This document shows positions 23,472 through 59,582 of a stretch of DNA of 64,000 bases, piece after piece (the first letter of the stretch is position 1; every line of letters starts with the position of its first letter). The notes beneath the pieces are model-generated. The model had not been told where the DNA came from. It saw nothing but the letters and a program-made list of their open reading frames with translations, and ran no database searches. The position numbers and the translations under genes were made by a program. The stretch is from Agrobacterium salinitolerans (GTDB lineage: Bacteria; Pseudomonadota; Alphaproteobacteria; Rhizobiales; Rhizobiaceae): contig NZ_MRDH01000022.1 in NCBI RefSeq assembly GCF_002008225.1, positions 48,669-112,668 of the forward strand. The letters run 5' to 3'.

Positions 23472-24233
23472 ATGGCCGTCAGCGAAAGAGACATGATGGG
23501 TGGTCTTGCCAAGGGATTGCGGGTGATCGAGGCCTTCAGCGCCGAACGGCCGCGCCTGTCGATCTCTGACGCCGCCGAGATCGCCGGGCTGGACCGAGCC
23601 ACGACGCGGCGTTGTTTGCTGACTCTTTCGGAGCTTGGCTATGCGGCCTATGACGGCAAGTTCTTCACCGTGACGCCGAAAGTCCTGCGGCTCGGCACCG
23701 GCTGTTTGGCCACCATGCCGCTTCCGAAGATCGTCCAGCCGCTGCTCGACCGATTGTCGGAGGAGATCGGCCAGAGCACCTCCGTTTCCATCCTGGACGA
23801 GACCGAAATCGTTTATGTGGCGCGTGCCGCTCAGCAGCGGGTGATGTCGATCGCGCTGATGCCGGGGTCGCGCCTGCCGGCCTATTGCACCTCCATGGGC
23901 CGGGTTCTGCTTTCGGCGCAGATGGCCGAGCGGCAGCGCGCCATTCTCGAGGCCTCCAGGCGGGTGGCACGCACGGAAAAGACGATCACCAGGTTGGACG
24001 CACTGCTCGCGGAAATCGAGGTCACCGGCCATCGCGGCTATGCGCTGATCGATCAGGAGGTCGAGATCGGCCTTCGCTCCATCGCCGTTCCGCTGAAAAG
24101 CGTGCGCGGCCAGACGGTTGCCGCCCTTAATGTCGGGCTTGCCGCCTCGGTCGCCTCGATGGAGGATCTGGTGGAGCGATATCTACCCGCCCTACTTGCC
24201 GTTCAGCGCGAACTGGCAAGAATGCTGGTCTGA
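23472..24233 (+). CDS. pcaR: IclR-family regulator of the beta-ketoadipate pathway
   Basis: A 253-residue regulator with an N-terminal winged HTH (LSISDAAEIAGLDRATTRRC) and an IclR effector domain (IGQSTSVSILDETEIVYVAR, PAYCTSMGRVLLS). PcaR activates pcaIJ in response to beta-ketoadipate in known systems. Here it is divergent from pcaIJF with operator-like sites between. Its 3' end overlaps the convergent pobR gene by 31 bases. Confidence 0.9.
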   Translation: MAVSERDMMGGLAKGLRVIEAFSAERPRLSISDAAEIAGLDRATTRRCLLTLSELGYAAYDGKFFTVTPKVLRLGTGCLATMPLPKIVQPLLDRLSEEIGQSTSVSILDETEIVYVARAAQQRVMSIALMPGSRLPAYCTSMGRVLLSAQMAERQRAILEASRRVARTEKTITRLDALLAEIEVTGHRGYALIDQEVEIGLRSIAVPLKSVRGQTVAALNVGLAASVASMEDLVERYLPALLAVQRELARMLV

Positions 24234-25126
24234 AGCGGCACCTGCCGCGCGCCGGAATCCCCCATTTTCCGCTGCTCCGCCAGCCGCCAGGCACGCGGGG
24301 TCATGCCGGTCTCGCGCTTGAAGAACCGGTTGAAATAGGCCGGATCGGCAAAACCCAGCCCCTCGGCGATCATCTGCACGCTCGAAACGGTAAAGATCAG
24401 TTCCTGCTGGGCGATCTCGATCTGGCGTTTGGCGATCAGCCGCTGCAGGCTGAGGCCGGAAACGGAACGGACCAGACGATTAAGGTGGGTTTCGGAAACA
24501 CCGAGCTTCCCGGCATAAAACCCGGCTTTCTGCGGCTCGCGGATATGACGGGCGATCAGCGACAGCAGCCGTTCAAAACGCTGCTCGGCCAAGCCTTCGC
24601 CGCTGGTTTCCAGAAGCGGCCGCGCCGCCCGTACAAGAAGCGTGACGACGGTGGCGAGCTGCCCTTCGATCATCGCGTCGCGACCGGTCTCGCGGGCCTC
24701 ATATTCCGCGGATATCCGTTCAAACCCGCTGCGCAGGCAGTCTTTCTCGGCAAAATTCAGCAGGGGCACAAGCACCGGCTGCTGGAAATTCCGCAGCAAC
24801 AGCGCCTGCACCGATGCAGGCAGCGCCCCGGGCAGCATGGTGACGATGACTCCGCCGATATCTCGGGAAAAACGGAAGCCATGTTCGAACCCCGGCGGCA
24901 CGATGATGGCGACCGGCGGGCGGATCGGCTCGACACGACCGTCGAGCAACGCATCGCCCTCGCCACCGAAAATGTACAAGATTTGCAGAAAGGCGGAATG
25001 CCGGTGCAGACCGATTTCAAAGCGATGCAGGCTGCTTCGCGAAAAAAGCGTCTCGCAATGGAAGCGAAAATCGGTGCCTTGTATGGCTTCTTCGCCATAA
25101 AGCCCTTCACTGGCAGTCAACCGCAT
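24203..25126 (-). CDS. pobR: AraC-family regulator of pobA
   Basis: A 307-residue regulator. A cupin-like sensor region occupies the N-terminal half (HRHSAFLQILYIFGGEGDAL, VPPGFEHGF), and two AraC helix-turn-helices the C-terminal part (AGKLGVSETHLNRLVRSVSG; MIAEGLGFADPAYFNRFFKR). It is divergent from pobA over 116 bases, the classic arrangement for the 4-hydroxybenzoate-responsive AraC-type PobR of rhizobia. The other end overlaps pcaR tail to tail. Confidence 0.88.
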   Translation of the reverse strand: MRLTASEGLYGEEAIQGTDFRFHCETLFSRSSLHRFEIGLHRHSAFLQILYIFGGEGDALLDGRVEPIRPPVAIIVPPGFEHGFRFSRDIGGVIVTMLPGALPASVQALLLRNFQQPVLVPLLNFAEKDCLRSGFERISAEYEARETGRDAMIEGQLATVVTLLVRAARPLLETSGEGLAEQRFERLLSLIARHIREPQKAGFYAGKLGVSETHLNRLVRSVSGLSLQRLIAKRQIEIAQQELIFTVSSVQMIAEGLGFADPAYFNRFFKRETGMTPRAWRLAEQRKMGDSGARQVPLQTSILASSR

Positions 25127-25188: not shown

Positions 25189-27353
<2,165 letters not shown>

Positions 27354-27360: not shown

Positions 27361-27376
27361 ATAATCCAGTGGTTAT
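27361..27376. promoter_or_regulatory. PcaQ box before pcaD
   Basis: ATAATC-CAGT-GGTTAT is an inverted repeat close to the rhizobial PcaQ consensus as I recall it (ATAACC-N4-GGTTAA). It lies between the divergent pcaQ and pcaD starts. Confidence 0.75.
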
Positions 27377-27447
27377 GATTTTCATCGATAATGTCATTTT
27401 ACTTAACCGGAACCCGCTTGCAATATCCCCGGCAGGAGGAGCACATC

Positions 27448-28245
27448 ATGCATTTTCTGCGCTGCGGCGAGACGGTGATCCATTATCACGTCAAGGGATT
27501 GGACACAGGCAAGCCGGTCGTCGCCTTCATCAATTCGCTCGGCACGGATTTCCGCATATGGGATGCGGTGATTGAAGCGCTTGGCGATGATTATGCCTAT
27601 GTGCTGCACGACAAGCGCGGCCATGGGCTTTCCGATGTCGGGCAGCCGCCCTATTCCATCGACGATCACGCCGGCGATCTGATCGCACTCCTCGATCATC
27701 TTGGCGTGAAGAGCGCGATCATCTGGGGCCTGTCGGTCGGCGGCCTGATTGCGCAGGGGATTTATGCCCGCCGTCCCGATCTGGTGCGCGCGCTCATACT
27801 CAGCAACACCGCACACAGGATCGGCACGGCCGAGATGTGGAACGCCCGCATCGACAAGATCGCCGCAGACGGCCTCGTCTCGCTGGTCGATCCCGTCATG
27901 GAGCGTTGGTTTACACCCGCCTTCCGTCAGCCTGACAACGCCGTCTATGCAGGCGCGCGCAATATGCTTTCGCAACAGCCGGAGGCCGGTTACAGCGGCA
28001 CGTGTGCGGCCATCCGCGATGCGGATTTTACCGAAGAGGCCGGGCGCATCGCCGTGCCGACGCTTTGTGTCGCGGGCGATCAGGATGGCTCTACCCCGCC
28101 GGAACTGGTGCAATCGCTGGCCGGTCTCATTCCCCCAAGCCGCTTCGTCACCATTGCCGGCTGCGGCCATATTCCCTGCCTCGAACAGCCGCTCGTTTAC
28201 GCACAGGCGGCAGGCATTTTTCTCAATACCTTGCCGGAGCATTGA
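27448..28245 (+). CDS. pcaD: 3-oxoadipate enol-lactone hydrolase
   Basis: A 265-residue alpha/beta hydrolase that opens beta-ketoadipate enol-lactone. ATG 27448 follows GGAGGAGC. The nucleophile is Ser96 in WGLSVGGL; the acid lies in AGDQDGSTPP and the catalytic His in GCGHIPCLEQP. First gene of pcaDCHGB; a 3-base gap separates it from pcaC. Confidence 0.94.
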   Translation: MHFLRCGETVIHYHVKGLDTGKPVVAFINSLGTDFRIWDAVIEALGDDYAYVLHDKRGHGLSDVGQPPYSIDDHAGDLIALLDHLGVKSAIIWGLSVGGLIAQGIYARRPDLVRALILSNTAHRIGTAEMWNARIDKIAADGLVSLVDPVMERWFTPAFRQPDNAVYAGARNMLSQQPEAGYSGTCAAIRDADFTEEAGRIAVPTLCVAGDQDGSTPPELVQSLAGLIPPSRFVTIAGCGHIPCLEQPLVYAQAAGIFLNTLPEH

Positions 28246-28248
28246 CCG

Positions 28249-28683
28249 ATGGCGGACCATATCGACAAGAACGCAAGATTTGAACAGGGCATGAAGACCC
28301 GCCGCTCCGTACTCGGCGACGCCCATGTGGACCGGGCGCAGACCATGACGTCCGGTTTCGACCAGCCTTTCCAGCAGCTCATCACCGAAGCCGCCTGGGG
28401 AACGGTCTGGTCCGGCAACCACTGGACGAAGCGGGAGCGCTCGATGGTGACCATCGCCCTGCTCGCCGCCCTCGGGCAGGACGAGGAGCTGGCCATGCAT
28501 GTGCGCGCCACCGCCAATACCGGCGCCACCGAAGCGGATATTCGCGAGGCACTGCTGCATGTGGCGATCTATGCCGGCGTGCCCGCCGCCAACCACGCCT
28601 TCAAGATCGCCAAGCTTGCCCTGGCCGGTATGAAGGCCGATAGTTCCGCTGATAATTCTGGCGATGGGGAGGAGACGAAATGA
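28249..28683 (+). CDS. pcaC: 4-carboxymuconolactone decarboxylase
   Basis: A 144-residue AhpD-like decarboxylase converting gamma-carboxymuconolactone to the enol-lactone used by PcaD. Family regions are [40 protein letters not shown] and [19 protein letters not shown]. It stands alone here rather than fused to PcaD as in some actinobacteria. Its stop overlaps the pcaH start by 4 bases. Confidence 0.94.
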
Positions 28684-29420
28684 GCAACCAACCGCCCGAA
28701 ACCGGGCCCTTCTTCGCGCGCAACCGCGATATTCATCCGCTCGCCTATGCGCCCGGCTACAAGACCTCGATCCTGCGCTCGCCGCAGCGCGCCCTGATTT
28801 CGCTTGAGGGCACCAAAAGCGAGATCACCGGCCCCGTTTTCGGCCATGGCATGCTCAACCCGCTGGATAACGACCTCATCCTCAACTATGCCCGCCCCGG
28901 CGAAATGCCTGTTGGCCCGCGCATTCTGGTCCACGGCCGGGTGCTGGACGAACGCGGCCGCGGCGTGGACGGCGCACTGGTGGAATTCTGGCAGGCCAAT
29001 GCCGGCGGCCGTTACCGCCACAAAAAGGAAAGTTACCTCGCCGCCATCGATCCGAATTTTGGCGGCGTCGGCCGCACGATCACGGATGAAAACGGCTATT
29101 ACTGGTTCAAGACCATCCAGCCCGGGGCTTATCCCTGGCCGAACGGCGTCAATGACTGGCGGCCGGCCCATATTCACTTCTCAGTCTTCGGCCACGGCTT
29201 TGCCCAGCGGCTGATTACCCAGATGTATTTCGAAGGCGATCCGCTGATCTGGAAATGTCCGATCGTGAAGACCATCCCCGATGAGGACGCGATCAAACGC
29301 CTGATCGCCCCGCTGGACATGAATGCGACGCTGCCGATGGACATGCTCGCCTACAAGTTCGATATCGTCCTGCGCGGCCGCCGCTCGACCCTTTTCGAAA
29401 ACCGCATGGAGGGAAACTGA
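28680..29420 (+). CDS. pcaH: Protocatechuate 3,4-dioxygenase beta subunit
   Basis: A 246-residue iron-bearing subunit of the enzyme that cleaves protocatechuate between its hydroxyls to 3-carboxymuconate. The non-haem iron ligands are visible: a Tyr in [11 protein letters not shown], a Tyr in [11 protein letters not shown] and the two His in [12 protein letters not shown] overlaps the pcaC stop. It forms the heteromer with PcaG. Confidence 0.95.
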
Positions 29421-29422
29421 CC

Positions 29423-30043
29423 ATGGTTCAGCCGCTCAGCTATCTCAAGGAAACCGCCTCGCAGACGGCAGGCCCTTACGTGCATATCGGCTGCACGCCG
29501 AATTTCGTCGGCATTGAGGGCGTGTTCGAGCGGGATCTCGGTTCAGGTCCGCTTTATAACGACAAGGCCCGCGGCGAACGCATCAGCGTGCGCGGCACTG
29601 TCTATGACGGTGCGGGAATGGCGCTGAAGGACGCGCTGATCGAAATCTGGCAGGCCGATTGCGACGGTTATTACAACAGCCCCAGCGAAACGCGGGGCAA
29701 GGCCGATCCGAATTTCATCGGCTGGGGCCGTTCGCCCGGCGACATGGATACGGGCGAATTCGTCTTCGAGACGATCAAGCCTGGTACAGTGCCCTTCCGC
29801 GATGGCCGGCCGATGGCGCCGCACATCACCTTCTGGATCGTCGCCCGCGGCATCAATATAGGCCTGCAGACCCGCATGTATTTCCCGGAAGAACAGGAGG
29901 CCAATGCCGCCGACCCGGTTCTTGCCCGCATCGAGCAAAAAAGCCGCATCGCCACGCTTGTCGCCAAAAAGGAAGAAGGCAACGTTTATCGCTTCGATAT
30001 CCGTCTTCAGGGCGAAGGCGAAACCGTGTTTTTCGATATCTGA
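29423..30043 (+). CDS. pcaG: Protocatechuate 3,4-dioxygenase alpha subunit
   Basis: A 206-residue subunit homologous to PcaH but lacking the iron-site histidine pair; the matching position reads MAPHITFWIVARG. The N-terminal QTAGPYVHIG is a family marker. It begins 2 bases after pcaH. Confidence 0.94.
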   Translation: MVQPLSYLKETASQTAGPYVHIGCTPNFVGIEGVFERDLGSGPLYNDKARGERISVRGTVYDGAGMALKDALIEIWQADCDGYYNSPSETRGKADPNFIGWGRSPGDMDTGEFVFETIKPGTVPFRDGRPMAPHITFWIVARGINIGLQTRMYFPEEQEANAADPVLARIEQKSRIATLVAKKEEGNVYRFDIRLQGEGETVFFDI

Positions 30044-30111
30044 CGCATATCGCGCTAAGGTGTGCAGCGGTTTTGCGACGACGATATGCGCAAAAGAAAG
30101 CGAGACGGAAG

Positions 30112-31173
30112 ATGAGCCTTTCCCCCTTCGAGCATCCGTTTCTGTCAGGCCTCTTCGGCGACAGTGAAATCGTCGAGCTGTTTTCGGCAAGAGCGGATAT
30201 CGACGCCATGGTCCGTTTCGAGGCGGGGCTGGCGCAGGCGGAAGCACAGGCCGGCATTATCCCCGAGGAGGCGGCAGAAGAAATCGTTTCGCGGCTTTCG
30301 GACTTTGCCGCCGATATGACCGCGCTTCGCCATGGCGTCGCGAAGGACGGCGTCGTGGTTCCCGAACTCATCCGGCAGATGCGCGCGTCAGTCGGCGGCA
30401 AGGCGGCCGACAGGGTGCATTTCGGCGCCACCAGCCAGGATGTCATCGACACCAGCCTGATGCTGCGGCTGAAGGCTGCGGCGGAAATCATCACGGCCCG
30501 CCTCGGCCACCTCATCGATGCGCTGGGAGACCTTGCCTCCCGCGACGGCCGCAACCCGCTGACGGGCTATACCCGTATGCAGGCCGCCATCGGCATCACC
30601 GTCGCCGCCCGGGCGGCGAGCTGGACTGCGCCGCTTGAACGCCATCTGCTGCGGCTCGAAACATTCGCACAGAGCGGCTTCGTCCTGCAATTCGGCGGGG
30701 CTGCCGGCACGCTGGAAAAGCTTGGCGACAATGCCGCAGCGGTGCGTGCCGATCTCGCAAAACGGCTCGGCCTTGCCGACAGGCCGCAATGGCAGAGCCA
30801 GCGCGACGGCATCGTCGAATTCGCCAATCTGCTCTCGCTGATCACCGGCGCGCTCGGCAAGTTCGGGCAGGATATCGCGCTGATGGCCGAGCTCGGTGCG
30901 GAGATCCGCCTTTCCGGCGGCGGCGGCTCCTCGGCCATGCCGCACAAACAGAACCCGGTCAATGCCGAAACGCTGGTGGCACTGGCCCGCTTCAATGCCG
31001 TGCAAATCTCGGCGTTGCACCAGTCGCTTGTCCATGAACAGGAAAGGTCGGGCGCGGGCTGGATGCTGGAATGGATGACACTGCCACAAATGGTGACGGC
31101 AACAGGGACGTCCCTGCTGATCGCCGAACGCCTCGCAGGACAGATAGACAGGCTGGGCGCGAAAGACGGCTAA
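30112..31173 (+). CDS. pcaB: 3-carboxy-cis,cis-muconate cycloisomerase
   Basis: A 353-residue member of the fumarase/aspartase superfamily that lactonises 3-carboxymuconate. The start ATG 30112 is chosen because homology begins at SLSPFEHPFLSGLFGD; an open frame extends upstream across pcaG without homology. Signature regions are HFGATSQDVIDTSL and the mobile loop GGSSAMPHKQNPVNAE. It is slightly shorter than some relatives (about 350-450 residues). Last gene of pcaDCHGB, 68 bases after pcaG. Confidence 0.92.
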   Translation: MSLSPFEHPFLSGLFGDSEIVELFSARADIDAMVRFEAGLAQAEAQAGIIPEEAAEEIVSRLSDFAADMTALRHGVAKDGVVVPELIRQMRASVGGKAADRVHFGATSQDVIDTSLMLRLKAAAEIITARLGHLIDALGDLASRDGRNPLTGYTRMQAAIGITVAARAASWTAPLERHLLRLETFAQSGFVLQFGGAAGTLEKLGDNAAAVRADLAKRLGLADRPQWQSQRDGIVEFANLLSLITGALGKFGQDIALMAELGAEIRLSGGGGSSAMPHKQNPVNAETLVALARFNAVQISALHQSLVHEQERSGAGWMLEWMTLPQMVTATGTSLLIAERLAGQIDRLGAKDG

Positions 31174-32209: not shown

Positions 32210-32219
32210 GGAGAAGACA

Positions 32220-33749: not shown

Positions 33750-33762
33750 GCAGGAGATTTCC

Positions 33763-36573: not shown

Positions 36574-36620
36574 GCTTCATTCCCTGGACGGGGCTGCCAT
36601 CCGGCGGCGGCCCCTTTATT

Positions 36621-36637: not shown

Positions 36638-36656
36638 TGCTGAAAAGGAAGGCAAT

Positions 36657-48081: not shown

Positions 48082-48097
48082 ATAACCGTCAGGTTAT
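48082..48097 (+). promoter_or_regulatory. PcaQ-type box before branched-chain-type importer
   Basis: ATAACC-GTCA-GGTTAT is a perfect inverted repeat with the spacing of the PcaQ consensus, and resembles the box before pcaD. It lies 100 bases before the binding-protein start. Otherwise 47923-48081 holds nothing I recognise. Confidence 0.65.
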
Positions 48098-48196
48098 TTA
48101 TACCCCCCCTTATTTCATTTTACTTTGGCCGCCGCACTCATCAATCTGACAGCCTGGATCGGTGGACGGGAGCCACGGATCAATTGGGAGGAAGTC

Positions 48197-49369
48197 ATGA
48201 AAATGCGGATCACCGCCGCCATCGCGGCCATTTGTTTTAGTTCCGTTGCCTATGCCGATACGATCAAGGTGGGTGTAGTCGGTCCGTTCTCCGGCCCCTT
48301 CGCGTTGCAGGGCAAGAACTTCAAGGCCGGCATCGACGCCTGGTTCGCCCTTAACGGCAACAAGGTCGGCGACGATACGGTTGAAATCGTCTATCGCGAT
48401 GTTCCGCAGGCCGATCCGGCGCAGTCCAAGGCGCTGGCGCAGGAGCTGGTGGTCAAGGAAGGCGTGCAATATCTCGCCGGCTTTTATTTCACGCCCGACG
48501 CCATGGCGGTTACACCGCTTCTGAAGCAGGGCAATGTGCCGATGGTCATCATGAATGCCGCCACTTCGGCCATCGTGACCAAGAGCCCCTATGTGGTGCG
48601 CACCTCGTTCACCACCTGGCAGACCTCCACACCCATCGCCAAGGTGGCCTTTGACGGCGGCGTGAAGAAGGTCATTTCGCTGGTCAGCGATTACGGCCCG
48701 GGCGTCGACGCCGAAAACGCCTTCAAGGCAGCCTTCACCGCCGCCGGCGGCGAAGTGGTGGAAACCATCCGCATGCCGCTTTCCACCAATGATTTCAGCC
48801 CGATCATGCAGCGCGTGAAGGATTCCGGCGCTCAAGGCGTCTTCGCCTTCCTGCCGTCGGGCCCGACCACGCTCGGCTTCGTCAAGGCCTTCAACGATAA
48901 CGGCCTGAAATCTTCAGGCGTCAAACTTTTCGCACCGGGTGATCTGACACAGGAATCCGATCTGCCGGCGCTCGGCGAGGCAGCACTCGGCATGCAGACG
49001 ACCTTCCATTACGCTGTCTCGCATGATTCCGCTGAGAACAAGACCTTCGTGGAAGCCGCCACCAAGGCGATCGGCAATCCGAAGGAACTGTCCTTCCCTT
49101 CCGTTGGCGCCTTTGACGGCATGTACGTCATCAGCAAGATGATCGAGGCCACCGGCGGCAAGCAGGATGCGGAAAAGGCGGTGGACGCGGTAAAGGGTCT
49201 TTCCTGGACAAGCCCGCGTGGCCCGGTCAGCATCGATCCGGAAAGCCGCCACATCACGCAGAACATCTATCTGCGCGAAGTGGCCAAGGGCGATGACGGC
49301 AATTATTACAACAAGGAAGTCCAGACCTTCGAAAAACAGGGTGATCCGGGCCTCGCCGCCGCGAAGTAA
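48197..49369 (+). CDS. Branched-chain-amino-acid-type ABC substrate-binding protein (candidate protocatechuate binder)
   Basis: A 390-residue LivK-family periplasmic protein. ATG 48197 follows GGGAGGAAG and begins the signal (MKMRITAAIAAICFSSVAYA). Core regions are VVGPFSGPFALQGKNFKAGI, VKEGVQYLAGFYFTPDAMAV and SDYGPGVDAENAFKAAFTAA. Relatives bind aliphatic amino acids, amides or aromatic acids. In Sinorhizobium meliloti a PcaQ-regulated importer of this class takes up protocatechuate; the PcaQ-type box here supports the same role. Confidence 0.85.
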   Translation: MKMRITAAIAAICFSSVAYADTIKVGVVGPFSGPFALQGKNFKAGIDAWFALNGNKVGDDTVEIVYRDVPQADPAQSKALAQELVVKEGVQYLAGFYFTPDAMAVTPLLKQGNVPMVIMNAATSAIVTKSPYVVRTSFTTWQTSTPIAKVAFDGGVKKVISLVSDYGPGVDAENAFKAAFTAAGGEVVETIRMPLSTNDFSPIMQRVKDSGAQGVFAFLPSGPTTLGFVKAFNDNGLKSSGVKLFAPGDLTQESDLPALGEAALGMQTTFHYAVSHDSAENKTFVEAATKAIGNPKELSFPSVGAFDGMYVISKMIEATGGKQDAEKAVDAVKGLSWTSPRGPVSIDPESRHITQNIYLREVAKGDDGNYYNKEVQTFEKQGDPGLAAAK

Positions 49370-49458
49370 AGAACAGTTTTGACGACGTTGTCGGGTCGCC
49401 AATAGCGGCCCGTCTCCGGCCCGGATGGGCATTGCAGCACCGGGAGGAGCTTTTCAGC

Positions 49459-50322
49459 ATGCAGACGGTCTTCAGCATCCTTGTCGATGCGCTTGCCTAT
49501 GGCATGGTCCTGTTCATCATCTCCATCGGCCTTTCGGTCACGATGGGGCTGATGCGGGTGGTCAATCTGGCGCATGGCGCTTTCGCCATGATCGGCGGTT
49601 ACCTCGCCTCCTATGCCGCCCACGGCCTCGGTCTCGGTTACGCCGTGGCGATCCTCGTCGCCATCGTCGGCACCATCGTCATCGCCATTCCGCTCGAACG
49701 TTTCCTCTATCGCCGCATCTATGGCGCGCCGGAGCTGACGCAGGTGCTAATGACCATCGGCATCACGTTTTGCATCATCGGCATCGCCAATTTCGTCTTT
49801 GGCCCAACGCTGAAGACCATTCCCTTGCCGCAGCAACTAGCCGGCCCCACCGATCTCGGCTTCCGCACCATCGCCACGCACCGCATCTTCGCCATTGCCT
49901 GTGGGCTGGCCGTGGCCGGAGCATTGTGGTTCACCTTCGAAAAGACGGCCTTCGGCATCAAGCTGCGCGCAGCCGTCGATAATGCCGCCATGGCGGCCGC
50001 ACTCGGCGTGCGCACCGAAATCATCTACGCCGTCAGCTTTGCCATCGCCGTCGGCCTTGCCGCCATGGGCGGCGTCATCGGCGCGGAACTTTTGCCGGTC
50101 GAACCCTATTATGCGCTGCGCTACATGGTGACCTTCCTAGTGGTGGTCTCGGTTGGTGGCGCAGGCTCCATTCCCGGCGCGCTGATCGCCTGTCTTCTGC
50201 TCGGCGCGATCGACACGACCGGGCGGTATCTTGCTCCTGAATATGGCGAATTCTTCTTTTACCTGGCGGTCATCGTGATCATCACGCTGTTCCCGCGCGG
50301 CCTTCTTGGAAGGGCGAAATGA
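49459..50322 (+). CDS. Branched-chain-type ABC permease (LivH family)
   Basis: A 287-residue permease. ATG 49459 follows GGAGGAGC. The N-terminal SIGLSVTMGLMRVVNLAHGA is the LivH signature, and GVIGAELLPVEPYYALRYMV lies in the later membrane region. It starts 89 bases after the binding-protein gene in a five-gene operon. Confidence 0.9.
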   Translation: MQTVFSILVDALAYGMVLFIISIGLSVTMGLMRVVNLAHGAFAMIGGYLASYAAHGLGLGYAVAILVAIVGTIVIAIPLERFLYRRIYGAPELTQVLMTIGITFCIIGIANFVFGPTLKTIPLPQQLAGPTDLGFRTIATHRIFAIACGLAVAGALWFTFEKTAFGIKLRAAVDNAAMAAALGVRTEIIYAVSFAIAVGLAAMGGVIGAELLPVEPYYALRYMVTFLVVVSVGGAGSIPGALIACLLLGAIDTTGRYLAPEYGEFFFYLAVIVIITLFPRGLLGRAK

Positions 50323-50323
50323 G

Positions 50324-51331
50324 ATGGCGGTGCTCATGAACGACGTGACTGAAACGGCAGAGATCCCGAAGGCGCGCTCACCGCTGCGCACGCTTGCGGG
50401 ACCGCTCCTCATCATTATGGCCGCGATTGCCGGTTATTATCTGTTTCCGGATAACCTGGCGCTTCTGACCCGCATCATCGCCATCGCGCTGCTGGTGCTG
50501 TCGATTGATCTTGTTACCGGCTATTGCGGCGTCGCGACACTTGGCCATGCCGCGCTCTTCGGCGCGGGCGCCTATGCCGCCGGCATTGCCGCGGCCCATT
50601 TAGAGATCACCGATCCGCTACTGATGACCTTGATCGGCGCAGGCGCGGGCGGCGTGGCTGGGTTGGTCTCCGGCACCGTTCTCTTGCGCGCCCACGGCCT
50701 GCCGCAGCTCGTTCTTTCCATCGCCGTCATTCACCTGTTCCACGAGGCCGCCAACAAAGCCTCCGGCTGGACCGGCGGCAGCGACGGGCTATCGGGCGTC
50801 TCTCCCGACGCCCTGTTCGGTACTTTCGAATTCGATCTTTTCGGCCGCACCGCCTATATCTATGGCGTCTGTCTGCTGCTCCTCGTGTTCCTCGCCCTCA
50901 AGGTTGTGGTCAATTCGCCCTTCGGCATGTTGTGCCGCGGCGTCAAGCAGGACAGCATCCGCATCCAGGCCATGGGCGGTTCGGTCAATGGCACTATTTT
51001 GAAGATGTTCGTCATATCGGGCATCGTCGCCGGCATTGGCGGCGCGCTGAACGCCATCTCCACCCAGGTCGTCGGTCTCGACAGCCTCAGCTTCACGCTT
51101 TCAGCCGAAGGGCTGGTCATGCTGGTGCTCGGTGGCGCAGGTTCGCTTTACGGGGCGCTGATCGGCACCGTCACATTCATGTGGTTCGAGGATGTGGTTT
51201 CCGCCGCCAACCCGTTCCACTGGCTCACCATTGTCGGCCTGCTGCTGATTGCCGTCGTGCTGTTTGCGCCGCGCGGGCTTTATGGCGCGGGTGAAGACAT
51301 CATTGCGCGCATTCGTGGAGGTCGCAAATGA
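50324..51331 (+). CDS. Branched-chain-type ABC permease (LivM family)
   Basis: A 335-residue permease with about nine membrane segments. The LivM motif GYCGVATLGHAALFGAGAYA is present, and GLVMLVLGGAGSLYGALIGT is the C-terminal family region. It starts one base after livH-like and overlaps the ATPase gene by 4 bases. Confidence 0.9.
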   Translation: MAVLMNDVTETAEIPKARSPLRTLAGPLLIIMAAIAGYYLFPDNLALLTRIIAIALLVLSIDLVTGYCGVATLGHAALFGAGAYAAGIAAAHLEITDPLLMTLIGAGAGGVAGLVSGTVLLRAHGLPQLVLSIAVIHLFHEAANKASGWTGGSDGLSGVSPDALFGTFEFDLFGRTAYIYGVCLLLLVFLALKVVVNSPFGMLCRGVKQDSIRIQAMGGSVNGTILKMFVISGIVAGIGGALNAISTQVVGLDSLSFTLSAEGLVMLVLGGAGSLYGALIGTVTFMWFEDVVSAANPFHWLTIVGLLLIAVVLFAPRGLYGAGEDIIARIRGGRK

Positions 51332-52092
51332 GCGCCATTTTCGAAGTCTCCGGCCTCAAGAAAAATTTCGGCGGCCTCGTCGTTACCAATAATGTGTCGA
51401 TGTCGCTTTCGCCGGGAGACCGCACGGTGCTGATCGGCCCCAATGGCGCCGGCAAGACCACCTTCGTCAATCTTGTCACCGGCAATATCAAGCCCTCGGC
51501 CGGAACGGTGCGCATCGCCGGCGAGGATGTGACCGGCCTCAGCGCCAGCCAGCGGGTGAAGCGCGGCCTCGTCCGTTCGTTCCAGGTCACAAGGTTGTTT
51601 CAGGACATGACGCCGGAGGAACATGTGGCGCTTGCCATTCTCCAGCGCGAAGGCAAGACGGGCCGGATTTTCGGCCGATACCGCGCCATGCCCTCGGTCA
51701 TGAGCGAAGCCCGCGACATTCTCGGCACGCTCGGCCTTCTGGCGCTTGCCGAAACTCGGGTGCGCGAAATCGCCTATGGCCAGCAGCGTCTGATCGAGAT
51801 CGCGCTGGCCATGGCGCTTCGCCCGAAAATCCTGCTGCTCGACGAACCCGCCGCCGGCGTGCCTTCCACGGAAACGGCGCGCATCGAACAGGCGCTCGAC
51901 CGGCTGCCGGCTGATCTCGCCATATTGATGATCGAACACGACATGGATCTGGTTTTCCGGTTTGCCAAACGTGTGGTGGTGCTCGCCGCAGGCGCCGTCA
52001 TCTTCGACGGCTCGCCGGAAGACGTCACCAGCAATGCGGAAGTCCGCCAAGCCTATCTGGGAAGTTACGCCGATGCCCGCAGCGCCGCTTGA
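51328..52092 (+). CDS. Branched-chain-type ABC ATP-binding protein (LivG family)
   Basis: A 254-residue ATPase with Walker A GPNGAGKTTFVNLVTG, the LivG-type RSFQVTRLFQDMTPEEHV segment and Walker B ILLLDEPAAGVPSTE. The signature reads AYGQQRLIEIALAMA, in which LSGGQ is replaced by AYGQQ, a common variation in LivG proteins. ATG overlaps the previous stop; its own 3' end overlaps the next gene by 20 bases. Confidence 0.9.
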   Translation: MSAIFEVSGLKKNFGGLVVTNNVSMSLSPGDRTVLIGPNGAGKTTFVNLVTGNIKPSAGTVRIAGEDVTGLSASQRVKRGLVRSFQVTRLFQDMTPEEHVALAILQREGKTGRIFGRYRAMPSVMSEARDILGTLGLLALAETRVREIAYGQQRLIEIALAMALRPKILLLDEPAAGVPSTETARIEQALDRLPADLAILMIEHDMDLVFRFAKRVVVLAAGAVIFDGSPEDVTSNAEVRQAYLGSYADARSAA

Positions 52093-52789
52093 AATCACCA
52101 ACCTCACCGCCGGTTACGGCCCGACAAGGGTCATCGAGGGCCTGTCGCTTTCCGTGCCGTCGGGCTCGCGTTTTGCCGTGCTCGGCCGCAATGGCGTCGG
52201 CAAGACCAGCCTCTTCGCCACACTGGCCGGCCAGACGAAACGCTTCGCCGGCGATATCCGCATCGGCGGGCAGGACATCGCCGCTTTGCCGAGTGCCGCC
52301 CGCGCCAAAGCCGGCCTCGGTTACGTGCCGCAGACGCGGGATGTATTCCCGACGCTTACCGTCGAGGAGAACCTGTTTGTCGGCCTCAAGGCTCGGCCAA
52401 AATCGGCCATCGAGGAAGCCTACACGCTGTTTCCGCGCCTCAAAGAGCGCCGCCGCAATCTCGGCTCGCAGCTCTCCGGCGGCGAACAGCAGATGCTTTC
52501 CACGGCCCGCAGCATTCTTGGCCAGCCGCGCGTGCTGCTGCTCGACGAACCGCTCGAAGGTCTCGCTCCCGTCATCTGCGAGGAGCTGATGGCAGCCTTC
52601 TCCAAGCTCGCCCAATCCGGCGAAATGACCATCCTCCTCGTCGAACAGCGCATCCAGATGGCCATCGACTTCGCCGACCACGCCATCATCATGGAACGCG
52701 GCCGCATCGTCTGGGAAGGGCCATCCAGCGATCTTGCGGAAAACCCGGATATTATCGATACGCATCTCGGAGTTGGCGGGCTGCACTAA
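52073..52789 (+). CDS. Branched-chain-type ABC ATP-binding protein (LivF family)
   Basis: A 238-residue ATPase. ATG 52073 (MPAAPLEITNLTAGYGPTRV) is the family start. Walker A GRNGVGKTSLFATL, signature QLSGGEQQMLSTARSIL, Walker B VLLLDEPLEGLAP. It is the last gene of the importer operon. Confidence 0.9.
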   Translation: MPAAPLEITNLTAGYGPTRVIEGLSLSVPSGSRFAVLGRNGVGKTSLFATLAGQTKRFAGDIRIGGQDIAALPSAARAKAGLGYVPQTRDVFPTLTVEENLFVGLKARPKSAIEEAYTLFPRLKERRRNLGSQLSGGEQQMLSTARSILGQPRVLLLDEPLEGLAPVICEELMAAFSKLAQSGEMTILLVEQRIQMAIDFADHAIIMERGRIVWEGPSSDLAENPDIIDTHLGVGGLH

Positions 52790-52962: not shown

Positions 52963-53778
52963 ATGACGGCAATCGAGGCGCCAGAATCCGTAAAGGCTTT
53001 TGAGGAGCGGCTGCTCCAGGTCGCGGAGGGTTTGCCGAAACGATTGCGGCAATGCGCCGATTATGTCGCCTCCAATCAGGATCGCATCGCCGTTTCCACC
53101 GTCGCCGAAATGGCGGAAGGGGCGGGCGTACAGCCTTCTGCCTTCATGCGTTTTTGCCAGATCATGGGCTTTTCCGGCTTTTCTGAGATGCAACGGCTGT
53201 TCCGTGATTCCTATGTCGGCGGTTGGCCGGATTACGCCACGCGGCTCGACCATCTGCGTGAAAAGGGCGATGAAAGCGCATCCGGCCTGCTTGCGGAATT
53301 CGTGGAGGCCGGCCGTTCCTCGCTGGAAATGCTGCTCAAATCGGTCGACACGAAGCAGCTTGATGAGGCGGTTTCAGCGCTCTCCCAGGCGCGCACCGTG
53401 CATATCATCGGTTTGCGCCGCTCCTTCCCCATCGCCAGCTATCTGGCCTATGCGTTCGAGAAGATGAAGGTGCCGGCGGTTCTGCACAGTGCGGTTGGCG
53501 GGCTCGGCAACATCAGCGCCATTTCCCGCGACGACGCGCTGATCGCCATCACCTTCTCGCCCTATTCCACTGAGACGCTGGAGCTTGCGGAAAACGCCCG
53601 CGCCAACGGTATTCCGGTCGTGGCGCTTTCCGATTCCGCGGTCAATCCGCTCCGGAAATCCGGTGCAACACTTCTGACGGTGACGGAAATCGATTTCGGC
53701 GCATTCCGATCGCTTTCGGCCACGCTCTGTCTCGCCATCACGCTGGCGGTTGCTGTGGGAACACGCAGGACCGCCTGA
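52963..53778 (+). CDS. iolR: RpiR-family regulator of inositol catabolism
   Basis: A 271-residue regulator. The N-terminal RpiR HTH is VSTVAEMAEGAGVQPSAFMR, then FCQIMGFSGFSEMQRLFRDS. The C-terminal SIS phosphosugar-binding domain covers about residues 120-260 (TVHIIGLRRSFPIASYLAYA, ALIAITFSPYSTETLELAEN). It directly precedes iolC, and known rhizobial IolR proteins of this family repress iol genes until an inositol intermediate appears. Confidence 0.9.
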   Translation: MTAIEAPESVKAFEERLLQVAEGLPKRLRQCADYVASNQDRIAVSTVAEMAEGAGVQPSAFMRFCQIMGFSGFSEMQRLFRDSYVGGWPDYATRLDHLREKGDESASGLLAEFVEAGRSSLEMLLKSVDTKQLDEAVSALSQARTVHIIGLRRSFPIASYLAYAFEKMKVPAVLHSAVGGLGNISAISRDDALIAITFSPYSTETLELAENARANGIPVVALSDSAVNPLRKSGATLLTVTEIDFGAFRSLSATLCLAITLAVAVGTRRTA

Positions 53779-53982
53779 ATATTTTTATTGAAAATGGAAA
53801 AAATAGAATTTATGATCCAAATCCATGAAACGGGCATTCCACGACTGTCCGTCTCGTGACGGGACAAGTGAGCGGAGGAGGCTCACCCGAGCGGGATGGC
53901 GACAACTGGCGGCATGGTTGCCTGATCCGCTCGACACATATGAGGCAGACCGCGCCAGCGTGCGGTGCTAAGGAGGAACCTT

Positions 53983-55899
53983 TTGAAAAAACTTGATCTT
54001 ATCACGATCGGGCGCTCGTCTGTCGACCTTTACGGTTCGCAGGTCGGCGGCCGTCTGGAGGACATGGCCTCCTTTGCCAAATATATCGGCGGCTCTCCCA
54101 CCAACATTGCAGCCGGTGCTGCACGCCTTGGATTGAACAGCGCGGTCATTACGCGTGTGGGTGACGAACATATGGGCCGTTTCATCCGCGAACAGCTGGT
54201 GCGCGAAGGCGTCGATGTGCGCGGCGTGAAGACGGACCCGGAGCGGCTGACGGCGCTCGTGCTGCTCGGCATTCGCGACCAGAACCAGTTTCCGCTGATT
54301 TTCTATCGTGAGAACTGTGCCGACATGGCGCTTAGCGAAGACGACATCGATCCCGCCTTCATTGCCGAGGCTGGCTGCATCTGCGCCACCGGCACGCATC
54401 TGTCGCATCCGAAGACGGAAACAGCCGTGCTGAAGGCGCTGAAACTTGCCCGCGAAAACGGTGCGAAAACAGCGCTCGACATCGATTACCGACCCAACCT
54501 CTGGGGTGTTGCCGGCCATGGCGATGGCGAAAGCCGCTTTGTGGAATCGCAGAAGGTCACCGCCAAGCTGCAATCCACCCTGCATCTCTTCGACCTGATT
54601 GTCGGCACCGAGGAAGAATTCCACATTGCCGGCGGCTCCACCGATACGCTGACCGCACTGAACGCCGTGCGCAAGGTGTCCAACGCGACGCTGGTATGCA
54701 AGCGCGGTCCGATGGGGGCTTCAGTCTTCACCGGCGATATTCCCGCAAGTCTGGACGATGGCGAGACGGGCGAAGGTTTTCCGATCGAGGTCTTTAACGT
54801 TCTCGGCGCGGGCGATGGTTTCATGGCCGGGCTGTTCCGCGGCTGGCTGCGCGGCGAGGATTGGCCGACGACGCTGAAATACGCCAATGCCTGTGGCGCC
54901 TTTGCCGTTTCCCGCCACGGCTGCACGCCCGCCTATCCGAGCTGGGAAGAGCTGCAATATTTCTTCAAGGCCGGCATTCGCAACAAGGCGCTGCGCAAGG
55001 ACGAGGCGCTGGAGCAGGTGCACTGGTCGACCAACCGCAAGGGCGACTGGGACACGATGCGCGTCTTCGCCTTCGATCACCGCATGCAACTGGAAGCCAT
55101 CGCCGACGAGCTTGGCGTGAAGCACGAGCAGATCGGCGCTTTCAAGAAGCTATGCCTTCAGTCCGCGCAGCAGGTTGCCGGCGACAGGCCGGGTTACGGC
55201 ATCCTCTGCGATGGCCGCCTCGGGCGCGATGCACTCTTTGCCGCCAGCGGCTCCGGCCTGTGGATCGGTCGCCCGGTGGAATGGCCAGGTTCGCGCCCGC
55301 TGACGCTGGAACCCGAACTCGGCAAGGATTTCGGCGGTCTTTCCGAATGGCCGCTGGAAAATGTCGTCAAGGTTCTGTGCTTCTATCACCCCGATGATAC
55401 CGACGAGATGCGTGCCGCGCAGGAGGAGACGGTAATGCGTCTGTTCCAGGCGACCCGCCGCAACCGGTTGGAAATGCTGCTCGAGGTCATTCCCTCCAAG
55501 GTCGGCCCGACAGATGATCTGACCGCCGCGCGCATCATCGAACGCTTTTACGAAATCGGCGTCTACCCCGACTGGTGGAAGCTGGAGCCGATGAAGACCC
55601 GCGCGGCATGGAAAAATGCCTGCGACGCCGTGCACAGCAACGATCCTTACGTGCGGGGCATCGTCGTTCTCGGCCTTGACGCACCGCAAAGCGAGTTGGA
55701 GGAGAGCTTCCGCCTTGCCGCAGGTTTCGATCTGGTCAAGGGTTTCGCGGTTGGCCGCACGATTTTCGCCGACGCCGCGCGGGGTTGGCTCGGTGGCAAG
55801 ATCACCGATGAGGAAGCGGTGAAGGACATGGCGCAGCGCTATACCAGCCTGTGCCGTATATGGGATGAGGCGCGCGCCAAAAAGGGAGAGGCAGCGTGA
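53983..55899 (+). CDS. iolC: 5-dehydro-2-deoxygluconokinase with C-terminal DUF2090 domain
   Basis: A 638-residue bifunctional-looking protein. The start is TTG 53983, six bases after AGGAGGA. Residues about 1-325 are a PfkB sugar kinase (IGGSPTNIAAGAARLGLNSA; catalytic Asp in NVLGAGDGFMAGLF) that phosphorylates 2-deoxy-5-keto-gluconate. Residues about 345-630 form a DUF2090 domain of aldolase-like appearance (VFAFDHRMQLEAIADELG, DGRLGRDALF, KVLCFYHPDD, KGFAVGRTIF). The fusion is common in proteobacteria and may supply the IolJ aldolase step. It overlaps iolD by 4 bases. Confidence 0.9.
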   Translation: MKKLDLITIGRSSVDLYGSQVGGRLEDMASFAKYIGGSPTNIAAGAARLGLNSAVITRVGDEHMGRFIREQLVREGVDVRGVKTDPERLTALVLLGIRDQNQFPLIFYRENCADMALSEDDIDPAFIAEAGCICATGTHLSHPKTETAVLKALKLARENGAKTALDIDYRPNLWGVAGHGDGESRFVESQKVTAKLQSTLHLFDLIVGTEEEFHIAGGSTDTLTALNAVRKVSNATLVCKRGPMGASVFTGDIPASLDDGETGEGFPIEVFNVLGAGDGFMAGLFRGWLRGEDWPTTLKYANACGAFAVSRHGCTPAYPSWEELQYFFKAGIRNKALRKDEALEQVHWSTNRKGDWDTMRVFAFDHRMQLEAIADELGVKHEQIGAFKKLCLQSAQQVAGDRPGYGILCDGRLGRDALFAASGSGLWIGRPVEWPGSRPLTLEPELGKDFGGLSEWPLENVVKVLCFYHPDDTDEMRAAQEETVMRLFQATRRNRLEMLLEVIPSKVGPTDDLTAARIIERFYEIGVYPDWWKLEPMKTRAAWKNACDAVHSNDPYVRGIVVLGLDAPQSELEESFRLAAGFDLVKGFAVGRTIFADAARGWLGGKITDEEAVKDMAQRYTSLCRIWDEARAKKGEAA

Positions 55900-57722
55900 A
55901 GACAATCAGATTGACGGCTGCGCAGGCTATGGTTCGTTACCTCGCCGCGCAGATGAATGAATATGGCGAGACCTATATTGCCGGTGTCTGGGCCATCTTC
56001 GGCCATGGCAATGTCGCAGGCATCGGCGAGGCACTTTATGGCATTCGCGAGGAACTGCCGACTTATCGCGGCCAGAACGAGCAATCGATGGCCCATGCGG
56101 CCATCGCCTATTCCAAGCAGCTGCGCCGCCGGCGCGCCATGGCGGTCACCTCCTCCATCGGCCCCGGTGCTGCCAACATGGTAACGGCGGCAGCGCTTGC
56201 GCATGTCAACCGCCTGCCGGTTCTGCTGATCCCCGGCGATGTTTTCGCCAATCGCGGTCCCGATCCGGTCTTGCAGCAGCTCGAAGATTTCGGCGACGGC
56301 ACGATGACGGTGAATGACTGCTTCCGCCCGGTCAGCCGGTATTTCGACCGCATCATGCGCCCGGAACAGTTGCTGACGGCGCTTCCCCGCGCCATGCGCA
56401 CCATGACGGACCCGGCCGATTGCGGCCCCGTCACGCTCGCGTTCTGCCAAGATGTGCAGGCGGAAGCCTATGATTACCCTGTCAGCTTCTTCGAAAAGCG
56501 AGTCTGGCGTCAGCGCCGCCCCGAGCCGGATATGGTGGAATTCGAAGAGGCCGTCGCCGCACTGAGGGCCGCGAAGAACCCGATCATCGTTGCCGGCGGC
56601 GGCGTGCATTTTGCCGGCGCAACCGACACGTTGAAGCGCTTTGCCGAAACCCACTCCATTCCTGTCGTCGAAACGCAGGCCGGTAAATCGGCATTGGCGT
56701 GGGATCACGATCTCAATTTCGGTCCCGTCGGCGTGACCGGTGCGGAAAGCGCTAATATAATCAGCGAAAAAGCCGATCTGGTCTTTGGCGTCGGAACGCG
56801 TTTTCAGGATTTCACGACCGGCTCCTGGGCGCTGTTCAAAAACCCGAGCCGCAAGATCCTGGCACTCAACGTTCAGCCCTATGACAGCGCCAAGCACGAT
56901 GCGATCAGCCTGACGGCCGATGCCAAAATCGGGCTTGAAAAACTCTCCGCAGCGCTCGGTAGCCATCGTTTTGCGGCGCCCGATGCGGGCCTCAAGGCAG
57001 CATGGTTCGAAAAGGCCGATGCCGATACGGCGGCACCGGGTGAGGACCATGCCAACAGCCTGCCCACCGACATGCAGGTGATCGGCGCTGTCCAGCGCCA
57101 GTCGCGTGACAATACCGTCGTCATGTGCGCGGCCGGCACCATGCCGGGCGAGCTGCACCAACTGTGGAAATCCAAGCTGCCGCTCTCCTATCACATGGAA
57201 TACGGCTTCTCCTGCATGGGTTACGAGGTGGCCGGCGGCCTCGGCATCAAGATGGCGGAACCGGACCGCGACGTGATCGTCATGGTCGGCGACGGTTCCT
57301 ACATGATGATGAATTCCGAGCTTGCGACATCGGTTGCGATGGGCGTGAAGATCACGCTCGTCATCACCGACAACAGGGGCTACGGCTGCATCAACCGGCT
57401 GCAGATGGAAACCGGCGGCGCGGAGTTCAACAACCTCTACGCCCACACCAACGTCAATCCCATCGCCATCGATTTTGCCGCCCATGCCGGCTCGATGGGA
57501 GCGGATGCGCGCAAGGTTTCCACCATCGCGGAGCTGGAAGACGCGCTCGCAGCCGCGCGCGCCTCCACCCGCACGACTGTCATCGTCATCGATACCGACC
57601 CTTATCCGACCCCGCAGGCCGGCGGTCACTGGTGGGATGTCGCGGTGCCCGAAGTCTCCGACCGCGCCGAAATCGGCCCGGCCCGCGTCCGTTATGAAAA
57701 CCATGTCAAGGAAAGACAGTAA
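55896..57722 (+). CDS. iolD: 3D-(3,5/4)-trihydroxycyclohexane-1,2-dione hydrolase
   Basis: A 608-residue thiamine-diphosphate enzyme that opens the inositol ring. The start is GTG 55896 overlapping the iolC stop (GTGA). The TPP-activating glutamate lies in [16 protein letters not shown], and the Mg-TPP motif is [20 protein letters not shown]. Length and order fit IolD. One base separates its stop from iolE. Confidence 0.94.
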
Positions 57723-57723
57723 G

Positions 57724-58632
57724 ATGATCCGTTACGGAACCAACCCGATTGCCTGGTCCAATGACGACGACCGGACGCTGGGTGCGCATATCAGCCTGGA
57801 ACAATGCCTCGATGAAACCGCCAAGATCGGTTTCGACGGTATCGAGAAGGGGCACAAATTCCCGACCGACCCGGAAGGCCTGAAGGGCGTGCTTTCGCCG
57901 CGCGGCCTCTCCTTCGTCTCCGGCTGGCATTCGCTGAACCTCCTGACCGACGACATCGAATCCGAAAAGAAGGCCATGCAGCCGGCGCTCGATCTCCTGA
58001 AGGCCATGGGCTCGAAGGTCATCATCGTCTGCGAAACCTCCAACGCCATCCACGGCGCCGATGACACGCCGCTGGTCGACCGTCCGCGCCTTGCGGCCGA
58101 GGACTGGGCCAAGTTCGGCGCAGGTGTCGAGGCGCTTGCCGCCTTTGCCGCCGAACAGGGCATTACCCTCGTTTATCATCACCACATGGGAACGGTGGTC
58201 GAAAGCGAAGACGAGATCGACCTCCTGATGAAGCATACCGGGCCGAAGACCCATCTGCTGCTCGATACCGGCCATTGCCTGTTCGGCGGCGGCGACCCCG
58301 TCCGCGTCGCGCAGAAATATATGGGCCGCGTCGGCCATATCCACGCCAAGAACGTGCGCCCAGTCATTGCCGAGCAGGTTCGGAACGAGCGGCTTTCCTT
58401 CCTCGAAGGCGTTCGCCGCGGCGTATTCACCGTACCAGGTGACAGCGAGGGCGGCGTGAACTTCTCAGCCGTGCTGAAAATTGCCGCCGAGCACAATTAC
58501 AGCGGCTGGCTGGTGATCGAGGCCGAACAGGACCCTGATGTGCGCAACCCGTTTGAATATCAGAGCCTTGGGCTGAAATCGCTGAAGGCTTTTGCGCGCG
58601 AAGCGGGGCTGGACAAGGCTGAGGCTGCTTGA
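57724..58632 (+). CDS. iolE: myo-inosose-2 dehydratase
   Basis: A 302-residue TIM-barrel dehydratase converting 2-keto-myo-inositol to the trihydroxycyclohexanedione used by IolD. ATG 57724 opens the family sequence [20 protein letters not shown]. Metal ligands are in [38 protein letters not shown] and [10 protein letters not shown]. It is third in iolCDEB. Confidence 0.94.
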
Positions 58633-58642
58633 AGCCTTTTCT

Positions 58643-58675
58643 CCCTCGTTCCTGTGCTCGTCACCGGGATGAGGG
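58643..58675. repeat. Solo arm of the palindromic element family
   Basis: A 33-base imperfect hairpin with CCCTC/GAGGG ends between iolE and iolB. It resembles the 31-base terminal arm of the element at 20473 (both share CCTGTGCTYGTCAC-like text). It probably arose from the same family and sits inside the operon. Confidence 0.55.
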
Positions 58676-58733
58676 AAACGCGGGAATAGCCGCCCGATGA
58701 ATTGAACGACTGACCAAAAAAGGGAACACCACC

Positions 58734-59546
58734 ATGACCTCACTTCTGCGCAAGCCGGTCGCGACCAGCGGCAAGGTGCACGATATCACGCCCCAAAGCG
58801 CGGATTGGGGTTATGTCGGTTTCGGCCTTTACCGCCTGAAGCCGGGCGAAACGGCGGCGGAAAACACCGGCGATACGGAAGTCATCCTCGTGCTGGTCGA
58901 AGGCAAGGCGACGATTTCCGCAGGCGGTAAGGACTTCGGTGAACTCGGCGACCGCATGAATGTATTCGAGCGCAAGCCGCCGCACTGCGTTTATGTTCCC
59001 GCCGGCTCCGAATGGTCGCTGACCGCCACGACGGACTGCACAATCGGTGTCTGCACCGCGCCCGGCGAAAAAGGCAACCGCGAGGCGCAGCAGATTGGCC
59101 CCAATGGCGTGCAGCTGACCGAGCGCGGCAAGGGCGCCAACACGCGTTACATTTTCCCCATCGCCATGGAAGAGCGCGATGTGGCCGACAGCCTGCTGGT
59201 GACGGAAGTTTTCACCCCGTCGGGCAACTGGTCGTCCTATCCGCCGCACCGGCACGATGAGGATAACTACCCCGACATGACCTATCTGGAAGAGACCTAT
59301 TATCATCGCCTCAATCCGGCCCAGGGTTTCGGCTTCCAGCGCGTCTTCACCGAAGACGGCTCGCTGGACGAGACCATGGCGGTATCGGACGGGGATGTCG
59401 TGCTGGTGCCGAAGGGTCACCACCCCTGCGGCGCGCCCTATGGGTACGAGATGTATTATCTGAACGTGATGGCCGGGCCGATGCGCAAATGGCGGTTCAA
59501 GAACCATCCCGATCATGACTGGATTTTCAAGCGCGATAATCCCTGA
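58734..59546 (+). CDS. iolB: 5-deoxy-glucuronate isomerase
   Basis: A 270-residue bicupin isomerase producing 2-deoxy-5-keto-gluconate, the IolC substrate. Metal-site histidines are in SYPPHRHDEDNYPDMTYLEE and VPKGHHPCGAPYGYEMYYLN. An AAAGGGAA site precedes the ATG. It follows iolE by 101 bases that include a palindromic repeat. Confidence 0.93.
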   Translation: MTSLLRKPVATSGKVHDITPQSADWGYVGFGLYRLKPGETAAENTGDTEVILVLVEGKATISAGGKDFGELGDRMNVFERKPPHCVYVPAGSEWSLTATTDCTIGVCTAPGEKGNREAQQIGPNGVQLTERGKGANTRYIFPIAMEERDVADSLLVTEVFTPSGNWSSYPPHRHDEDNYPDMTYLEETYYHRLNPAQGFGFQRVFTEDGSLDETMAVSDGDVVLVPKGHHPCGAPYGYEMYYLNVMAGPMRKWRFKNHPDHDWIFKRDNP

Positions 59547-59582
59547 CCGCTATTTTCACTTTAAATTTTGGGAGGAATGACC

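Follow-up and report, generated by a model that had tools for sequence, protein, structure and literature searches.

A putative PcaQ-controlled protocatechuate importer of Agrobacterium salinitolerans and its two-part operator

The closest described relatives of the locus discussed here are rhizobial importers of the ATP-binding cassette (ABC) type. The Sinorhizobium meliloti operon pcaMNVWX was reportedly described by MacLean et al. in 2011, whose abstract is also said to place PcaQ-like sites before ABC systems of other alphaproteobacteria; the operon treated below may already be listed there. Herein, we analyze a 64,000-nt stretch of the Agrobacterium salinitolerans genome (the window) and focus on a five-gene importer operon that we read as the Agrobacterium counterpart of pcaMNVWX, placed under the regulator PcaQ by a promoter element that it has in common with pcaDCHGB, the operon for the catabolism of protocatechuate, an aromatic acid of plant origin.

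In S. meliloti, pcaMNVWX (smb20568 and smb20787-20784) is a PcaQ-regulated ABC transporter (PMC4495286, PMC5002191, PMC13406360), in which Smb20568 is PcaM (PMC4495286). The first-pass annotation of the window had pointed to such a PcaQ-controlled protocatechuate importer of the same type, and expression dependent on PcaQ and protocatechuate is known for the orthologues of R. leguminosarum (PMC4495286) and S. meliloti (PMC5002191). Rhizobium leguminosarum RL3906-RL3910 likewise has a pcaM orthologue with a predicted PcaQ site and is linked to a growth defect on protocatechuate, but differs in its predicted pobA upstream and in the location of its other pca genes on plasmid pRL11 (PMC4495286). 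The kind of system is therefore already known from these two species. More distantly, Rhodopseudomonas palustris provides the solved binding proteins RPA0985 (4evs, solved with 4-hydroxybenzoate) and RPB_2270 (4f06). The leucine/isoleucine/valine (LIV) importers belong to the same superfamily and have the same subunit composition, yet their binding proteins are only distantly similar to that of the present operon. In Agrobacterium itself, PcaQ is described as the validated activator of pcaBGHCD (A. tumefaciens C58; PMC12285266).

The importer operon and its binding protein

The five-gene HAAT-type importer claimed by the first-pass annotation is indeed present, its genes encoding first a binding protein, then a pair of permeases, and finally a pair of ATPases (Table 1); along the five open reading frames (ORFs), Pfam assigns Peripla_BP_6, BPD_transp_2, BPD_transp_2, ABC_tran, and ABC_tran. 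Alignment with the S. meliloti importer, the check proposed at that stage, finds all five genes on pSymB of strain 1021 in identical order and at 73-86% identity. The pSymB record carries no gene labels, and the name pcaMNVWX is taken from the papers. Toward its nine nearest named loci (six from Agrobacterium, three from Rhizobium), PcaM is 94-98% identical.

Because sequence, structure, promoter, and neighbourhood agree, we consider it highly probable (about 0.88) that positions 48197-52789 hold the Agrobacterium orthologue of the pcaMNVWX importer, that its PcaM binds protocatechuate, and that PcaQ activates both the importer and the pca operon. Orthology, the common operator, and the conserved context are established at the level of sequence, and we infer the substrate, PcaQ binding at the importer promoter, the start site, and the role of the second operator element described below.

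Table 1. Positions of the importer genes, the operator elements, and the associated pca/pob genes (window coordinates unless another genome is named)
Feature	Position	Strand	Evidence
pcaM orthologue, periplasmic binding protein, 390 amino acids	48197..49369	+	86% identity to S. meliloti; structure neighbours 4f06, 4evs
pcaN orthologue, permease	49459..50322	+	85% identity to S. meliloti; BPD_transp_2
pcaV orthologue, permease	50324..51331	+	73% over 306 amino acids to S. meliloti; BPD_transp_2
pcaW orthologue, ATPase	51328..52092	+	74% identity to S. meliloti; ABC_tran, BCA_ABC_TP_C
pcaX orthologue, ATPase	52073..52789	+	73% identity to S. meliloti; ABC_tran
PcaQ box (ATAACC-N4-GGTTAT) before importer	48082..48097	+	ATAACCGTCAGGTTAT, 0 mismatches
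Second operator element before importer	48113..48123	+	TTTCATTTTAC, starts 15 nt after box
PcaQ box before pcaD	27361..27376	+	ATAATCCAGTGGTTAT, 1 mismatch
Second operator element before pcaD	27392..27402	+	TGTCATTTTAC
pcaQ, LysR-type activator	26409..27353	-	TIGR02424 TF_pcaQ, 457.5 bits (cut-off 303.8)
pcaDCHGB, protocatechuate branch of the beta-ketoadipate pathway	27448..31173	+	NCBIfam equivalogs, all five over cut-off
pobA, 4-hydroxybenzoate 3-monooxygenase	25243..26415	+	TIGR02360, 687.8 bits (cut-off 538.7)
AraC-type regulator divergent from pobA (pobR position)	24203..25126	-	gene order as in PMC12285266, Fig. 1 legend
Operator place among the 69, downstream gene not looked at	G085:C2:258114-258155

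PcaM is related to the aromatic-acid binders of the RPA0985 group over its full length, in sequence as well as in fold, and is 63% identical to RPA0985 itself, compared with 12-22% for entries described as leucine- or branched-chain-binding. Since 4-hydroxybenzoate is the ligand in the nearest binding-protein structure for which a ligand is named, the specificity is best stated as protocatechuate with a probable 4-hydroxybenzoate overlap. A conventional branched-chain amino acid importer with a coincidental box could draw on the family-level domains in common with LIV transporters and on the NCBIfam matches of PcaM, which consist solely of two urea-binding models and one branched-chain amino acid binding protein model. 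All three matches nevertheless lie far below cut-off (e.g., 82.2 of 492.75 bits, and 64.2 of 477 for the branched-chain model), and the identities just given, as well as an operator found in this genome only before pcaD and pcaM, make such an importer barely credible. The first-pass prediction that these genes would serve aromatic acid rather than leucine/isoleucine uptake is thus supported, as far as sequence comparison goes, by the relation to RPA0985 and by the operator common to pcaD.

The next PcaM homologue of the same genome, at 50% identity, is another binding protein of the RPA0985 group, on contig C29 (L116:6950-8119), whose best PDB match is again 4evs. The ORFs behind it (L116:8186-11478) resemble permeases and ATPases by size only, and the stretch also holds a relative of vanillate/syringate O-demethylases (below cut-offs), folate C1 genes, and a catechol-dioxygenase-like gene. 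The two-part PcaQ operator is absent from this stretch, and methoxylated aromatic acids may be taken up by a distinct importer encoded there.

The PcaQ box and a second element

A perfect repeat about 100 bases before the first importer gene and a near-identical box before pcaD had both been noticed in the first-pass annotation. Both are there, with 99 nt between the former and the ATG at 48197, and 71 nt between the latter and the start taken for pcaD at 27448. The S. meliloti PcaQ site is given as ATAaccgggggatTAT (PMC5002191) and was found at position 7845 of the S. meliloti locus; unlike that site, the importer box in the window is an exact palindrome. When A was changed to G in the ATA and TAT ends of the S. 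meliloti site, activation of pcaMNVWX fell (PMC5002191); both boxes of the window keep these ends.

A perfect box occurs only once in the 4,986,140-bp genome, namely before the importer, against about 0.10 expected from base composition. Looser matching discriminates poorly: with up to three mismatches, the window holds 15 sites, compared with a mean of 7.16 and a maximum of 13 in shuffled sequence, and a tolerance of up to two mismatches yields 84 sites genome-wide, where the reversed pattern yields 61, for which reason the box alone was rejected as a genome-wide marker. Three further boxes with one mismatch are found elsewhere in the genome, none of which matches the two-part pattern introduced below: two (L002, L004) each lie within a listed ORF, and the third (L003) lies inside an opposite-strand ORF, 58 nt before an ORF judged by eye to be oxidoreductase-like. 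The claim that the box marks the importer as a protocatechuate transporter is supported in its reading rather than in its argument: the box by itself says little, and it is orthology and the two-part operator common to pcaD that carry the assignment.

When 25 promoters are aligned on the box, TTTCATTTTAC, 15 nt past it, proves at least as conserved as the box itself. The longer operator can be written as ATA-N10-TAT, N15, and TNTCATTTTAC, of which the box is half. Its search pattern, ATA-N10-TAT-N14..16-TNTCATTTT, has exactly two matches in the genome, one ahead of pcaD and one ahead of pcaM, whereas its reversed form has none. Among the 66 boxed pcaM promoters of the locus survey (see below), the best match to the second element sits at offset 15 in 61 promoters, with 2 more at offset 16, and is free of mismatches in 44, a full match that shuffled downstream sequence never produced. 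All 21 pcaD promoters (20 loci and the window) contain the element with one or two mismatches to TTTCATTTTAC, at offset 15 in 20 and offset 16 in one. S. meliloti pcaMNVWX has the PcaQ-type box and the spacing to its TTTCATTTT element in common with the window. Among the stretches fetched for the 19 Peripla_BP_6 matches of the genome, of which 13 exceed the family cut-off, the two-part operator is confined to the pcaM locus; the best of the others has five mismatches in the second element, and another (L102) carries a one-mismatch box downstream of its binding protein, within another ORF. The two-part operator, together with its recurrence in front of several importer families (see below), is possibly new.

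In the work of MacLean et al. (2011), the PcaQ site reportedly lies at -73 to -58. With that spacing, the second element would fall roughly between -42 and -32, a position that LysR-type regulators often occupy once their inducer is present. We read the site-centre distance of PMC5002191 as counted from the start site, because the S. meliloti box sits 125 nt before the ATG (99 nt here).

A mechanism can be proposed along these lines. In the periplasm, PcaM would bind protocatechuate and probably also 4-hydroxybenzoate; PcaN and PcaV would form the channel, and PcaW and PcaX would hydrolyze ATP. PcaQ, encoded beside pcaDCHGB, would activate both operons through one type of operator: the palindromic box (ATA-N10-TAT) followed 15 nt downstream, near the presumed -35 region, by TNTCATTTTAC as the putative activation half-site of a LysR-type regulator. 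PcaHG would then cleave the imported protocatechuate, and the ring-opened intermediates would turn PcaQ into an activator, so that importer and pathway would switch on together. Induction by protocatechuate should, in that case, need PcaHG.

Conservation and variation in related genomes

The survey of pcaM loci comprised the best 80 of 298 relatives found by scan, plus S. meliloti where 81 are counted. The order MNVWX is conserved in 81/81 loci; within the fetched flanks, pcaQ and pcaD occur in 20/81 and pobA in 40/81 (cut-offs of 48% identity and 55% of query length, weaker matches being dropped). In the 300 nt before pcaM and its first 60 nt, a box with at most three mismatches is found in 66/80 loci, versus 155/2690 control stretches of the same length from the same loci. 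At the level of the family, 32 of 199 genomes have a pcaM orthologue at 70% identity or more (at most nine first-look candidates were scored per genome). As many as 31 of these 32 also have pcaH, versus 105 of the 167 others (Fisher p 4.3e-5, uncorrected for relatedness), and in 20 of the 31 both genes lie within 25 kb on one contig.

Several points weigh against the reading of a PcaQ-controlled protocatechuate importer. The genomes are related, and the Fisher test overstates their independence. In the window, the importer lies 21 kb from the pca operon and is not adjacent to it, a distance that also sets it apart from S. meliloti. The closest solved homologues with listed ligands hold 4-hydroxybenzoate or vanillate, and a protocatechuate complex is absent from the structure listings of homologues; 4eyk, listed without a title, is presumably one. 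Furthermore, PcaQ control of pcaM is not universal, since in 14/80 loci pcaM follows pobA by 64-129 nt without a recognisable box. Boxes with four or more mismatches are likewise found in 14 loci, of which 13 have pobA directly upstream; in the remaining one (L058), a degenerate box occupies the usual position and the flanks hold no pobA. The set of pobA-near loci is completed by L076, where a three-mismatch match falls inside pobA, and the three-mismatch boxes of L064 and L078, without a second element at the usual offset, are likely due to chance. In the 14 pobA-near loci, no box with fewer than four mismatches occurs in the 300 nt upstream of pobA either, and the importer is probably co-transcribed with pobA, which would fit 4-hydroxybenzoate transport. 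Regarding the 4-hydroxybenzoate part of the reading, finally, the R. leguminosarum pcaM mutant grows more poorly on protocatechuate but is unchanged on 4-hydroxybenzoate (PMC4495286).

These observations also bear on an overlapping alternative, in which the importer mainly serves 4-hydroxybenzoate, protocatechuate is secondary, and PcaQ control acts as a feed-forward for both. Such a feed-forward would be based on the conversion of 4-hydroxybenzoate to protocatechuate by pobA, and pobA lies on the same strand at most 402 nt upstream of pcaM in 32/80 loci (further off in 8 of the 40 pobA-bearing ones). RPA0985 is strongly stabilised by 4-hydroxybenzoic acid, with which 4evs is a complex; 4-hydroxybenzoate induces the R. 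leguminosarum operon (PMC4495286); and a 2025 study of A. fabrum describes a pca cluster without pcaK, the best pcaK-like gene, Atu2525, not being induced (PMC12288460). The mutant phenotype just mentioned and the PcaQ operator that the importer promoter has in common with pcaD speak against this alternative, and we regard 4-hydroxybenzoate as the principal substrate as rather unlikely.

The operator of the proposed protocatechuate importer was also searched for in 199 genomes of the family and 297 of the order (13 of the same family; the sets overlap, and the order search used a slightly stricter box). Within the family, 49 places are listed in 42 genomes, 28 before the pcaD operon, 17 before pcaM, and 4 elsewhere, as assigned by distance to pcaH and pcaM. 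The order search lists 25 places in 19 genomes: 14 before pcaD (13 identified by blastp, and L164 from its distance to pcaH together with visual inspection), 2 before pcaM, 8 before subunits of TRAP transporters (6 confirmed by Pfam; L149 and L168 judged by near-identical sequence only), and 1 before a HAAT-type binding protein. Combined, after removal of 5 duplicates, the 69 listed places comprise 38 for pcaD, 18 for pcaM, 10 for TRAP, and one each for a carrier of the major facilitator superfamily (MFS), another HAAT type, and a gene not looked at (Table 1). Among the matches listed for both sets, the reversed pattern gave 0. The strict pattern is absent from 157/199 family genomes while pcaH is present in 136/199, which leaves many pca operons without a match.

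Among the order TRAP places, a DctQ-type gene follows the operator by 32-78 nt in 7/8, and a DctP-type gene lies at 367 nt in the eighth (L162). In four genomes (G203, G415, G483, G349), the TRAP operator is 6.2-6.3 kb from the pcaD operator; a Roseobacter has TRAP genes 159 bp upstream of its pca cluster, and their expression rises with 4-hydroxybenzoate (PMC12442348). The other HAAT-type binding-protein place (L156) adjoins a divergent LysR-like gene (by eye), and in another genus of the family (G092, L127:1501-1542), a clean two-part operator precedes an MFS gene whose nearest model is that of the aromatic acid/H+ symport family, although it scores below the cut-off of that model (285.7 of 418.55). 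Judging from these sequences, the switch seems constant while the importer type varies. We lean, by a small margin, toward a fixed-spacing module (ATA-N10-TAT, 15 nt, TNTCATTTTAC) that would be constant across the order, with the importer being exchanged among HAAT-type ABC, TRAP, MFS carrier, and a second HAAT type.

Looser operators with poorer boxes were met in G085 and G164 (L139 and L140), where they lie 147 and 223 nt ahead of genes for TRAP binding proteins. Their neighbours include genes for an AsnC-type regulator and a 4-hydroxyphenylpyruvate dioxygenase-like protein (by Pfam and NCBIfam, respectively, in L139; by eye in L140), and the true regulator there may differ from PcaQ. Both places, with no pca gene in the 3-kb stretch, would suit the notion that the operator serves a different LysR-type regulator, one that recognises a similar site, as does the fit of ATA-N10-TAT to the general LysR pattern discussed in PMC5002191. 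Against this, the same spaced element occurs in the pcaQ-pcaD intergenic region and before pcaD in 20/20 pcaD-holding loci, and the A. salinitolerans genome has exactly two matches. A regulator other than PcaQ is thus very unlikely.

Genomic surroundings and significance for Agrobacterium

The order pobR-pobA-pcaQ-pcaDCHGB in the window matches atu4545-atu4538 of A. tumefaciens C58 (PMC12285266). Between the pca operon and the importer, the forward strand carries genes for an ABC importer of the polar-amino-acid type (31529-34521), for a member of the shikimate dehydrogenase family (34597-35463), and for a QuiC-like 3-dehydroshikimate dehydratase that scores below cut-off (36657-38591). The region 31529-38591 looks like a quinate/shikimate branch feeding protocatechuate, and its ABC importer may carry quinate or shikimate. 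Downstream of pcaX (52963-60707, forward strand), an RpiR-type regulator is followed by a myo-inositol catabolic run, of which an iolC fusion, iolD, iolE, and iolB are over cut-off and a Gfo/Idh-type dehydrogenase is below all cut-offs. Elsewhere in the window, two xanthine (NMT1) riboswitch aptamers lie at 3912-3960 and 6782-6827 on the forward strand (41.1 and 42.2 bits; gathering score 36).

In the passages of the literature considered, the importer is not named for Agrobacterium. In 2025, atu4538-atu4549 was mapped in a study devoted to the pob genes, whose main text uses neither the word transporter nor the word ABC (PMC12285266). With the importer described here, Agrobacterium gains a concrete candidate for the uptake of protocatechuate and, likely, 4-hydroxybenzoate, and a likely annotation as leucine transport would be corrected. 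The operator pattern appears specific enough to find importer genes of several families and, if its constancy across the order is true, would predict aromatic-acid importers of any family.

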